Virus record (IMG/VR): IMGVR_UViG_3300004804_000029
Coordinates: 1 to 24,513 of that record
From: a virus
Strand: one strand, 5' to 3'
Length of the DNA: 24,513 bases
This document shows positions 7,650 through 24,434 of this stretch, piece after piece. The notes below the pieces were generated by a model, which was not told the DNA's origin, made no database searches, and was given only the letters and a program-made list of their open reading frames with translations. Positions within the stretch are counted from its first letter, which is position 1. The number at the start of each line of letters is the position of its first letter. A program made the position numbers and the translations under genes.

Positions 7650-8081
7650 ATGAAGTCTGATGACAATTTATCAAAGATATTTGATGTAGAGCCTCTTAAA
7701 CAGGGTGAAGTTGCAAGTGTGGGACAAGAGATTGTCCCAGCTTCCAATAAGGTAGAAGAGAACGTTGATTACGACTATGATTCAGCTCGTAACAACCTAC
7801 ATAAGCTATTGAATCAAGGACAAGATGCATTGTACCATGCGCTAGAGATAGCCAAACAGTCTGAGCATCCAAGAGCCTTTGAGGTAGTAGGAAACTTAAT
7901 GAAACAGTTAGCTGACACTAATGAACAGCTACTAGCATTAAGTGAACGTAAGCAGAAGTTGGATGCTCCTAAGCAACAAGAAGGACAGCCTAATAAGCAA
8001 GTGACGAACAACAACGCGATATTCGTGGGATCTACAAGTGAATTGAGTAAGATGATCAAGGATATGAATAAAGGAGAATAG
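7650..8081 (+). CDS. 16: Small terminase subunit gp16
   Basis: 143 aa (T4 gp16 is 164 aa). It has the order of T4 gp16: an acidic N-terminus, DYDYDSARNNLHKLLNQG, a helical pair including EIAKQSEHPRAFEVVGNLM, TNEQLLALSERKQ, and the C-terminal NNAIFVGSTSELSKMIK. The last block aligns with T4's NATVFMGSPTELMDEI. gp16 forms rings that regulate the gp17 packaging motor and recognise DNA. gp17 does not follow here: the next gene is gp26, so the two terminase genes are separated in this genome. Confidence 0.85.
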   Translation: MKSDDNLSKIFDVEPLKQGEVASVGQEIVPASNKVEENVDYDYDSARNNLHKLLNQGQDALYHALEIAKQSEHPRAFEVVGNLMKQLADTNEQLLALSERKQKLDAPKQQEGQPNKQVTNNNAIFVGSTSELSKMIKDMNKGE

Positions 8082-22973: not shown

Positions 22974-23231
22974 TTATTCTGCTTCTTGGTTTGTAACTGT
23001 TTGATAGATCGTTTCAAATTCATCATTAAGAGCTACTTCTTCGTTGAAGTTTTGTCTATGATATGTATTAGCAAGCTTAGCTAATGTCTTTTTAGGGATC
23101 TTAAACTCGTCATAAAGGTTCTTAAGTACTTCTTTAACAAAGTCCTTCTCAGCCTCTACACGTGTCATTGAATCAGATATCTCGTTAAGAGCACCTTTGA
23201 TTTTCTTTTTGTCTTCTTCAAGTAATTGCAT
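22974..23231 (-). CDS. dsbA: DsbA-like double-stranded DNA-binding protein
   Basis: 85 aa from MQLLEEDKKKIKGALNEIS; T4 DsbA is 89 aa. The C-terminal two thirds follow T4 DsbA by eye: EAEKDFVKEVLKNLYDEFKI, KKTLAKLANTYHRQNFNEEV and EFETIYQTV correspond to T4's KDIRIRAKDELGV, FNRLLALYHKDNR and EEVVELYDTVF. T4 DsbA binds DNA near late promoters and enhances late transcription. GGAGAT precedes this ATG. The frame stays open further upstream into the tRNA, but that part is RNA, not protein. In T4, dsbA adjoins rnh; here a 364-aa gene separates them. Confidence 0.7.
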   Translation of the reverse strand: MQLLEEDKKKIKGALNEISDSMTRVEAEKDFVKEVLKNLYDEFKIPKKTLAKLANTYHRQNFNEEVALNDEFETIYQTVTNQEAE

Positions 23232-23350
23232 ATTATCTCCAAAATTAAAATGACGTGCCGGGGAGCCCTTGGGGTAGGACACGTTTGCTGCTTTGCTAAT
23301 GAGTATTGTACCGCGATCGCTCGCCTCCATCAAGTTCTCATTATATAAAT
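23232..23350 (-). ncRNA. GC-rich gene-free segment after the tRNA, possible structured RNA
   Basis: About 120 nt between the tRNA CCA end and dsbA, visibly richer in G and C than the surrounding genes. A strong hairpin at 23253-23284 pairs ACGTG and CC with GG and CACGT (one bulged base) around a 17-nt C/G-rich loop. The palindrome GCGATCGC lies near 23313-23320. It may be part of the transcript processed with the tRNA. It is also open as a protein frame fused to dsbA, but its composition is unlike the genes here. Confidence 0.4.
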
Positions 23351-23427
23351 TGGTGGGCCCACATGGACTCGAACCATGAACCAAAGGATTATGAGTCCTC
23401 TGCTCTAACCAACTGAGCTATAGGCCC
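23351..23427 (-). tRNA. tRNA with CAU anticodon, probably tRNA-Ile2 (alternatively tRNA-Met)
   Basis: A full 77-nt cloverleaf on the minus strand: acceptor GGGCCTA/TGGGCCC, D arm GCTC/GAGC, anticodon arm GAGGA-CTCATAA-TCCTT (anticodon CAU), T arm CATGG-TTCGAGT-CCATG, discriminator A and an encoded CCA end. The acceptor has C4-G69 and C5-G68, features used by TilS to recognise tRNA-Ile2, and looks like tRNA-Ile bodies; this favours the AUA-reading Ile2 form, as carried by T4. An elongator tRNA-Met cannot be excluded. Confidence 0.95.
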
Positions 23428-23494
23428 CTTTTTAAAGTGCACTAGGTAAAATAGAGGTACCCTTAGTTTGACCCCTCTAATGCACTTTAAAAAG
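23428..23494. repeat. 14-bp inverted repeat forming a long hairpin directly before the tRNA
   Basis: CTTTTTAAAGTGCA (23428-23441) and TGCACTTTAAAAAG (23481-23494) are perfect inverted repeats. The 39-nt loop contains a further 6-bp stem (TAGAGG 23452-23457 with CCTCTA 23474-23479). One arm touches the tRNA 5' end, so it may be a processing site or a terminator/antiterminator between the structured RNA and the tRNA. Confidence 0.7.
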
Positions 23495-23577
23495 ACTCTA
23501 CAACGTGCGTATCCACACTGACCCGCGGAAGCTGACCATGGATAGTCCGCATATATGTATTAAGTGGCGTAGAGTCT
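23493..23577 (-). ncRNA. Candidate structured RNA closed by a 9-bp stem and followed by T5
   Basis: AGACTCTAC (minus 23577-23569) pairs perfectly with GTAGAGTCT (23501-23493), and on the minus strand five T follow the stem. Inside, GCGGA (23550-23546) pairs with TCCGC (23529-23525), and GTGT/GCAC can close a small hairpin near 23508-23521. This gives a three-way-junction layout. There is no protein gene in this stretch and it lies directly upstream of the tRNA in the same orientation. I do not recognise it as a known RNA family. Confidence 0.5.
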
Positions 23578-23583
23578 AAGCCG

Positions 23584-23841
23584 TTAAATAGCTTGAACTG
23601 ATATTACTGACTCAAGTCTGAATGATCTCCAACCTTGGTTTTCAGTATCAAATACTCGTAACACTTCCTTCGAAGGCTCTTTATCAGATACATTCTTTGG
23701 TTGATGTTCATCGGGTATGTTTGTCAACGTACAAAGCATCGTTCTCTCTGTGCCATCCACTTTTTTAAACACAACTCTAACATCACCGGTGATCAGTTGT
23801 TTATAAACATGATCATAAAACTGTTCATCATTTAATATCAT
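23584..23841 (-). CDS. Small WYL_2/DUF2693-like protein
   Basis: 85 aa from MILNDEQFYDHVYKQLI. VRVVFKKVDGTERTMLCTLT, then LRVFDTENQGWRSFRLESVI matches the pattern of the small DUF2693 (WYL_2) family common in T4-like phages: a beta-barrel domain of unknown role, related by fold to WYL sensing domains. The ATG overlaps the stop of the preceding gene (TAATG). A longer reading from 23868 is possible but would overlap that gene. Confidence 0.65.
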   Translation of the reverse strand: MILNDEQFYDHVYKQLITGDVRVVFKKVDGTERTMLCTLTNIPDEHQPKNVSDKEPSKEVLRVFDTENQGWRSFRLESVISVQAI

Positions 23842-23987
23842 TAGTCTTCTCCATAACCTGGACCCCATGAATGAGGATCCACTAAACTGTTTAATAATTC
23901 TTGCTCTTCTAATGAAACTTCGTCCTCATCAATAGGATCTGGGGTTTCATACATACGACCTTTTTTAATGCCTTTTACATTTAACAT
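23841..23987 (-). CDS. Very small acidic protein of unknown function
   Basis: 48 aa from MLNVKGIKKGRMYETPDPID; the rest is acidic (EDEVSLEEQELLNSLVDP then HSWGPGYGED). A longer form starting at 24023 (60 aa) is equally open. The promoter-like TATAAT at 23994-23999 lies within that longer form and predicts a transcript starting at the 23987 ATG, so the shorter form is preferred. No family recognised. Confidence 0.55.
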   Translation of the reverse strand: MLNVKGIKKGRMYETPDPIDEDEVSLEEQELLNSLVDPHSWGPGYGED

Positions 23988-23993
23988 GATGTC

Positions 23994-24022
23994 ATTATAC
24001 CCCTTTTTTGATTTATTGTACA
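23994..24022 (-). promoter_or_regulatory. Promoter of the TxTACw-17-TATAAT family (divergent spacer)
   Basis: Minus strand: TGTACA (24022-24017), 17-nt spacer, TATAAT (23999-23994), then 6 nt to the ATG at 23987. The spacer starts ATAAATC instead of TTAATTA. It would drive the small genes, the structured RNA, the tRNA and dsbA. Confidence 0.5.
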
Positions 24023-24029
24023 TATATTT

Positions 24030-24434
24030 TTACCATGAGCTCGTATAAAATACTTCTTCACCGCGAGCAAAAGCTTCTCGAGCCTTTTTGATAAACTCAA
24101 TGTCTGCAGCTTTATCATCTTCGTCAAACCTCGAGTCATTACCAAAGAAGAAACCTTCGGTCTCTGGTAACTCATTGTTGAGTACCACAGACTCAATATA
24201 ATTGATGTCAGCCTCGGTGAGTTCCATCTCGATGCCATTAAAAGGTATCGCACGTTCCTGTTCAAAGTCTTCAGGATACTCATCACGCATCCATTGAGGG
24301 ATAGGTTGACCCTTGTCGTTCCACATGTCTTCTAATAGACCATGAAGAGCGTTGTGTTTTCTCCAGTATTGGAGTTCGATTGCTTTTGACTCCTTTTCTT
24401 TAGCGCGACTGTACGCGTACATATCTAAACCCAT
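24030..24434 (-). CDS. Conserved phage protein of unknown function (MGLDMYA family)
   Basis: 134 aa. The start MGLDMYAYSRAKEKES and ELQYWRKHNALHGLLEDMW are typical of a small protein found in many phages and some bacteria. Later parts include WMRDEYPEDFEQERAIPFNG and GNDSRFDEDDKAADIEF. Function unknown. The stop of the gene upstream lies 2 nt before the ATG. Confidence 0.7.
   Translation of the reverse strand: MGLDMYAYSRAKEKESKAIELQYWRKHNALHGLLEDMWNDKGQPIPQWMRDEYPEDFEQERAIPFNGIEMELTEADINYIESVVLNNELPETEGFFFGNDSRFDEDDKAADIEFIKKAREAFARGEEVFYTSSW

Follow-up and report, generated by a model that had tools for sequence, protein, structure and literature searches.

The phage DNA analysed here (the window, i.e. 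the whole stretch of 24,513 nt of the IMG/VR record IMGVR_UViG_3300004804_000029) very likely harbours a real, conserved structured RNA, hereafter S1, in which the unpaired core stays near-invariant while the stems keep changing, a pattern that marks a functional RNA. As to its role, I favour, by a modest margin, a non-coding RNA gene of the phage that acts in trans and probably pairs with itself; processing, partner and self-association are inferred, and there are no expression data.

By the comparison of gp32 and by PHROGs matches among its genes (for gp32, for baseplate and for the helicase loader), the window represents part of a T4-like phage. The nearest gp32 is that of Pelagibacter phage HTVC008M (55.7% identity over 86%), the identity to that of Methylophilales phage Melnitz being 47.4%. 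On the minus strand, which is the transcribed strand of both flanking genes and of the tRNA and the one on which the element is read, a WYL_2 gene is followed by S1, by a second hairpin (H2), by tRNA-Met(CAU) and by a DsbA-like gene (Table 1). In the window, this strand folds better than its shuffles (z -3.5, 1 of 200 being equally good); a plus-strand reading was rejected, for the fold is weaker there (z -2.6). A protein gene was rejected as well: 23428-23583 contains no ORF of at least 50 aa, and differences in length from group to group break any frame.

Table 1. Positions in the window of S1, its parts and its neighbours
Feature	Position	Strand	Remarks
Upstream neighbour gene, WYL_2 (Sm-like SH3 fold)	23584..23868	-	phrog_1086
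S1, conserved structured RNA, ~85 nt	23493..23577	-	three-way junction P1 / P1b+P2 / P3; cmsearch, covariation in relatives
P1 5' arm	23569..23577	-	pairs with 23493-23501; starts 6 nt past the WYL_2 gene stop codon
P2 5' arm, GCGGA	23546..23550	-	in the near-invariant core; pairs with 23525-23529
P2b apical palindrome, CCATGG	23536..23541	-	proposed self-pairing loop
P2 3' arm, UCCGC	23525..23529	-
J2/3, GGGUCA	23519..23524	-	GGU can pair with GCC of J1/2 (P1b)
P3 hairpin, 4 bp	23505..23518	-	loop GGAUAC
P1 3' arm	23493..23501	-	runs into T5
H2, 18-bp hairpin	23428..23494	-	abuts P1 at one end and the tRNA 5' end at the other
tRNA-Met(CAU)	23351..23427	-	neighbour of H2
Downstream neighbour gene, Phage_DsbA-like transcriptional regulator	22974..23231	-	typed protein

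The covariance model R2 matches the window at 23492-23578 (cmsearch, 69.2 bits). P1 is a 9-bp stem that encloses a branched interior of ~67 nt and is followed by T5, while the near-invariant unpaired core is made of J1/2 (gCCAnYnAAUA..AUAUAU), directly before the P2 5' arm, and, in most members, of GGGUYA after P2. The 18 bp of H2, one G-U included, pair 23477-23494 with 23428-23445; the stem ends exactly at the tRNA 5' end, has 23493-23494 in common with the arms of P1, and is preceded by T's and followed by A's, the reverse of a terminator. An earlier note, made from the sequence alone, had claimed for this 156-nt stretch two adjacent structures (a 9-bp stem with a branched interior and T5, and a 14-bp inverted repeat touching the tRNA 5' end), arms overlapping by 2 nt and no plausible protein gene; all of this held, the 14 bp being only the core of the longer H2 stem. 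It had further proposed that the RNA is undescribed, and that its stems should be kept by paired substitutions; the second point held in the alignments of relatives, and the first is supported, as no Rfam 15 family model matches S1 in the window and the member loci searched and none matches H2 above its gathering score. Weak matches of H2 to microRNA families (mir-17 at E 0.049; in a second search at E 0.0005) stay below that score and were dismissed as look-alikes among long hairpins. Likewise, a search of the open-access literature returned no description of the S1 RNA, which is weak evidence that it is unpublished, subscription papers and preprints being mostly uncovered.

Folding of the single sequence is ambiguous, P1 being absent from the MFE structure and present only in the centroid; it is the comparative data that secure P1. 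In A7, an alignment of 61 chosen members (58 distinct sequences), 95.1% of the cells of the whole structure are paired versus 70.7% in shuffles, and control slides of the partners by 1-3 columns leave 30.4-43.5% paired; cells changed on both sides number 401 versus 120.4 in shuffles, and 22 of the 30 pairs show double-sided change. Four of five such measures exceed all 500 shuffles, the fifth (the 22 doubly changed pairs) being equalled by 48 of the 500. An earlier alignment, A6 (33 distinct rows), gives a similar covariation result. MAFFT alignments (A2, A3) misplaced P3 and the P1 3' arm. A6 and A7 were fitted to the model and hence lean towards it; this favours the fold in A7, yet slides made within the very same alignment do not pair. 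As for the single stems, all pairs of P1 (9/9) and of P3 (8/8) are doubly changed among relatives, and so are the two P2 pairs next to P2b (17 have G-C instead of C-G, and 21 have another pair instead of U-A). There is hardly any variation in the P2 core and in P1b, which carry little information by themselves, the one varying pair of P1b being G-U in 55 and A-U in 3, and the inner P2b pairs are only 70.7% paired.

The WYL_2 protein, used as query, gave 62 loci, in 7 of which (L002-L008) S1 and H2 lie downstream of the WYL_2 gene; in an eighth (L009) the two are split by an insert of ~250 nt, and L022 carries S1 in another context. Further members came from pattern scans of viral contigs filtered with the covariance models R1 and R2, the set growing from 34 members by 10 matches and by another 25 (L353 counted among the 25); these member numbers are lower bounds. 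Over the matched span, S1 measures 71-148 nt. Eight near-duplicates (L261, L267, L268, L275, L297, L389, L401, L404) were left out of A7, together with second entries of contigs that bear two locus names. The pattern matches L076, L099, L225 and L227, as well as later scan matches without an R2 match, were dropped as chance. A small protein with the C-terminus DPHxxGPGxxE, encoded in the window at 23841-24023 (minus strand), repeatedly lies directly or one gene before S1, also in L071, L072, L228, L250 and others.

Among annotated phages, blastn with five S1-bearing queries yielded no convincing copy, whole-query searches being swamped by tRNA matches; R2 detects no S1 in Pelagibacter phage HTVC008M or Methylophilales phage Melnitz, and no cultured carrier was found. 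In bacterial genomes, 113 of 113 pattern stretches were checked with R2, the best reaching only 20 bits (E 0.17), the bacterial pattern covering only the GCGGAC type. S1 is likely phage-borne as far as sampled, because in two bacterial classes, under strict filters, none of 289 and none of 274 whole genomes carries it.

The earlier note had taken S1 and H2 together and placed them beside a CAU tRNA, a picture that has to be widened. The two are separable: many S1 copies lack H2, and H2 occurs solely together with S1, which lies upstream in each of the 23 stretches from the H2 pattern scan; H2 variants were folded only singly. The CAU tRNA held in part: tRNA-Met, with H2 in between, is the neighbour in the group of the window, and other copies adjoin tRNA-Ser (in arrays), tRNA-Arg, Trp, Glu or Asp/Cys, a permuted tmRNA, or no RNA gene at all, in which case they lie directly after stop codons or between genes. 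Overall, 38 of 61 copies are found within 100 nt of a tRNA or tmRNA, as compared with 9.6% of random 90-nt stretches of the same loci, and in 38 of 38 S1 is on the strand of that neighbour; the remaining 23 have neither within 100 nt, some of their contigs being cut short.

Other elements adjoin S1 in some loci. In L009 and L085 there is a third self-closed module, whose order relative to S1 and H2 differs; a module of ~155 nt closed by AAGAGCGC..GTGCTCTT (L009:372-527 and L085:3440-3595) is 95% identical in the two phages and seems to be another structured RNA. A stem-closed stretch of ~95 nt (AATAATACAC..GTGTATTAT; L009:273-370) is located between S1 and the ~155-nt module. Non-coding stretches with similar starts of the AGTCC..GGAC type occur in L271 (1180-1330, after H2), likewise in L375, and in L022 (1835-1960); they have no Rfam match at gathering score, and the one in L271 has a GGGGACTTAAAACGTCCCC hairpin near the next gene. 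In L363, L389, L401 and L404, another hairpin (AAAACACATTAGAG..CTAGTGTGTTTT) follows S1 in the place of H2. In L274 and L284, a GTCACCG..CGGTGAC stem-loop of ~41 nt, nearly identical in these two different contigs, lies just upstream of S1, and P1 extends to 19 bp.

Some S1 copies have a sigma-70-like promoter of their own just before P1, which is shown by sequence, there being no expression data. In L073 and L092, a promoter-like pair (11/12 consensus letters, spaced by 17 nt) stops 8-10 nt short of the P1 reference point, and in L070, L079 and L090 an 11/12 match lies 36-48 nt before it. Such matches occur in 5 of the 41 loci examined (about three lineages), against a background of 0.006 per 90 nt in the same contigs.

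S1 is present exactly once in each of the 48 S1-bearing records searched with R2 (24/24 and 24/24), among them contigs of 98.9, 118.6, 124.0, 127.6, 212.9 and 235.8 kb; these records are contigs, many of them fragmentary, and none of those searched is rated at least 90% complete. A permuted tmRNA scores over the Rfam cut-off in 16 of 36 S1-bearing records searched; the same model also gives a signal in 5 of 14 control genomes, over the cut-off in 1. In five records (G001, G029, G031, G032 and G033, i.e. four distinct S1 sequences, as G031 equals G032), S1 lies inside the tmRNA match, with the CCA end on one side of it and the coding piece on the other. It precedes the permuted tmRNA by 5-13 nt in another five (G030, G036, G038, G039, G040) and by 61 nt in G043, follows it by 59 nt in G035, and is ~300 nt away in G037 and G042 and more than 7 kb away in G028 and G006. 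The last of these (the 235.8-kb record of L284) is a single phage contig with two permuted tmRNA genes, both of which exceed the Rfam cut-off.

A case in point is L226, where S1 replaces the interior of the tmRNA intervening segment; in tmRNAs without S1 (Melnitz and G004, the latter searched with R2 as a non-carrier and found without S1) this segment is closed by a plain stem. In L393, a beta_tmRNA match starts at 7883, in the 3' part of S1 (7824-7918), and the ARAGORN extents also overlap S1. The tmRNA models cross S1 only as intervening segment, and an identity of S1 with a tRNA or tmRNA is not met.

These locations bear on a first rival explanation, a possible one, namely that S1 serves RNA processing in cis, together with H2 or a long P1, and separates a message or a piece of a tRNA or tmRNA precursor from what follows; it might do so as a self-cleaving ribozyme (self-cleavage being hypothetical) or as the target of a nuclease of host or phage. 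In its favour, S1 sits exactly at boundaries where precursors are cut, i.e. between tRNAs (in L374 with 5-6 nt on both sides), in the intervening segment of tmRNA and after stop codons, and it joins an invariant unpaired core to double-stranded closing stems. Against it, only one spacer per genome holds S1, though arrays have many; the tmRNAs of Melnitz and G004 manage without it, with plain stem-closed segments; and no ribozyme family of Rfam matches.

A second rival, which I regard as unlikely, makes S1 a cis-acting aptamer or attenuator of the downstream gene, P1 closing round a ligand and, with T5, ending transcription or hiding a ribosome-binding site. P1 with T5 does have the look of a terminator, both in the window and in close relatives; in L274 and L284, the P1 3' arm continues into an AAGGTG..ATG stretch, and an invariant core is typical of aptamers in general. 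However, the genes downstream are unrelated (several tRNAs, tmRNA, different proteins), many copies (L066, L228, L374) have no T run after P1, the terminator scan found none there, and an S1 in the intervening segment of a tmRNA lacks a downstream gene that it could regulate in the ordinary way. A simple intrinsic terminator was rejected, since the scan has no site in 23200-24100 and many members are without the T run.

Third, S1 might be a small DNA element, mobile or forming a recombination joint, with palindromes that act at the DNA level; it would then be a cassette for shuffling in the manner of the PeSLs of T4-type phages. The varied locations of S1, the module order that differs between L009 and L085, and the ORFs inserted upstream of S1 in L007 and L008 would agree with it. 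Yet the ends of P1 are not fixed in sequence, S1 is oriented like the stable RNA next to it in 38 of 38, there is one copy per record, and changes in the RNA pairs are compensatory; already strained by the orientation and covariation data, this reading is very unlikely.

The tips of P2b and P3 are hypervariable yet self-complementary. Of the distinct arms, 35 of 43 for P2b and 37 of 52 for P3 contain a self-complementary stretch of at least 6 letters; P2b shuffles (1000) average 10.8 and never exceed 21 of 43, P3 shuffles average 14.3 with a maximum of 24, and only 2 of 58 copies (L022 and L091) have no palindrome in either arm. These shuffles do not keep the hairpin stems, to which part of the excess is therefore owed; in an earlier set, with only the middle four letters of P2b randomised, 6.9 were expected and 19 of 26 seen. 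By eye, the central four letters of even-loop P2b hairpins in that set are CATG, CTAG, TCGA or CCGG in nearly all, and AGGC in one. Bases in the middle of a tight hairpin cannot pair together, so that their being kept complementary while changing points either to intermolecular pairing or to DNA template switching that perfects hairpins, two sources which sequence cannot separate.

Returning to the trans-acting RNA gene, S1 is, on balance, a gene housed either in units that are transcribed into stable RNAs (tRNA, permuted tmRNA) or in the gaps separating protein genes. It would be co-transcribed with its neighbours and freed by tRNA and tmRNA processing, i.e. by RNase P at the downstream 5' end and by trimming back to the upstream CCA, both routes being expected to act on it in a permuted tmRNA, with H2 or a long P1 as putative closing or processing stem. 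Freed copies would then pair with one another via their palindromic tips, the invariant core would bind a partner, so far unidentified, and S1 would act in trans during infection. A processing signal used repeatedly, or a switch of one gene, would agree poorly with a single copy and with neighbours that change, and its constant strand and the placement of promoters argue for an RNA gene. On the other hand, a single copy, as would suit a trans RNA, is also normal for a one-gene riboswitch, many of the copies without a nearby tRNA or tmRNA directly follow a stop codon, which fits a cis element too, and the possible ribosome-binding site reached by the P1 3' arm in L274 and L284 speaks against it; along the same line, the palindromic tips may stem from template-switch correction of imperfect hairpins and not from selection.

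A bolder version of this reading, no more than a possibility, pictures S1 as an RNA-only self-pairing machine, present in one copy in islands of translation genes, which would form dimers or polymers via its changing palindromic loops and grip with its core a conserved component of translation or trans-translation; the loops would serve as recognition codes by which only RNAs of the same phage pair, and S1 would be kin in kind, not in descent, of the GOLLD and ROOL cages.

GOLLD and ROOL are RNAs that phages and prophages encode near tRNA islands, and they form homo-oligomers and self-associate by kissing loops, one environmental GOLLD being downstream of a Met-tRNA (PMC12286853). S1 is likewise phage-borne and often near tRNAs; unlike them it is 71-148 nt long instead of hundreds (GOLLD often exceeds 800 nt), has no Rfam match to either, and its self-association, suggested by the palindromic tips, is only inferred. 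GOLLD had been named at the outset as a parallel, and S1 is not of that class. The stable RNAs C and D of T4 (species 1 and 2), one copy each in the annotated region of the tRNA cluster (AF158101), are also small RNAs beside phage tRNAs; homology is not met, as neither R1 nor R2 finds S1 in that region (L231), and RNA C ends, by its own sequence, in a tRNA-like T arm, whereas S1 does not. One permuted tmRNA gene is reported with a tRNA-Ala in its intervening segment (PMC11915505). S1 can fill this segment, whose closing stem then serves as P1; other phage tmRNAs (G004, Melnitz), however, have unrelated segments, and S1 also occurs far from any tmRNA. Finally, a glutamine riboswitch (glnA) has been described beside the two-piece tmRNA of Melnitz (PMC9004378), where RF01739 is found 3' of the tmRNA; it is, like S1, a structured RNA beside a phage two-piece tmRNA, but its core is different and S1 has no RF01739 match.

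To sum up, S1 is a well-supported RNA family, new to Rfam 15, in phages endowed with tRNA arrays and a tmRNA of their own, and it adds a case in which the part that a two-piece tmRNA discards houses an independent RNA. With the covariance model, the 58 sequences and the single-copy rule, there are direct ways to test whether S1 acts in trans, whether it pairs with itself and how it is processed. If the palindromes do serve self-pairing, this RNA of ~90 nt would offer a tractable system in which to ask why phages carry self-assembling RNAs beside their tRNAs, a question unsolved for GOLLD and ROOL.
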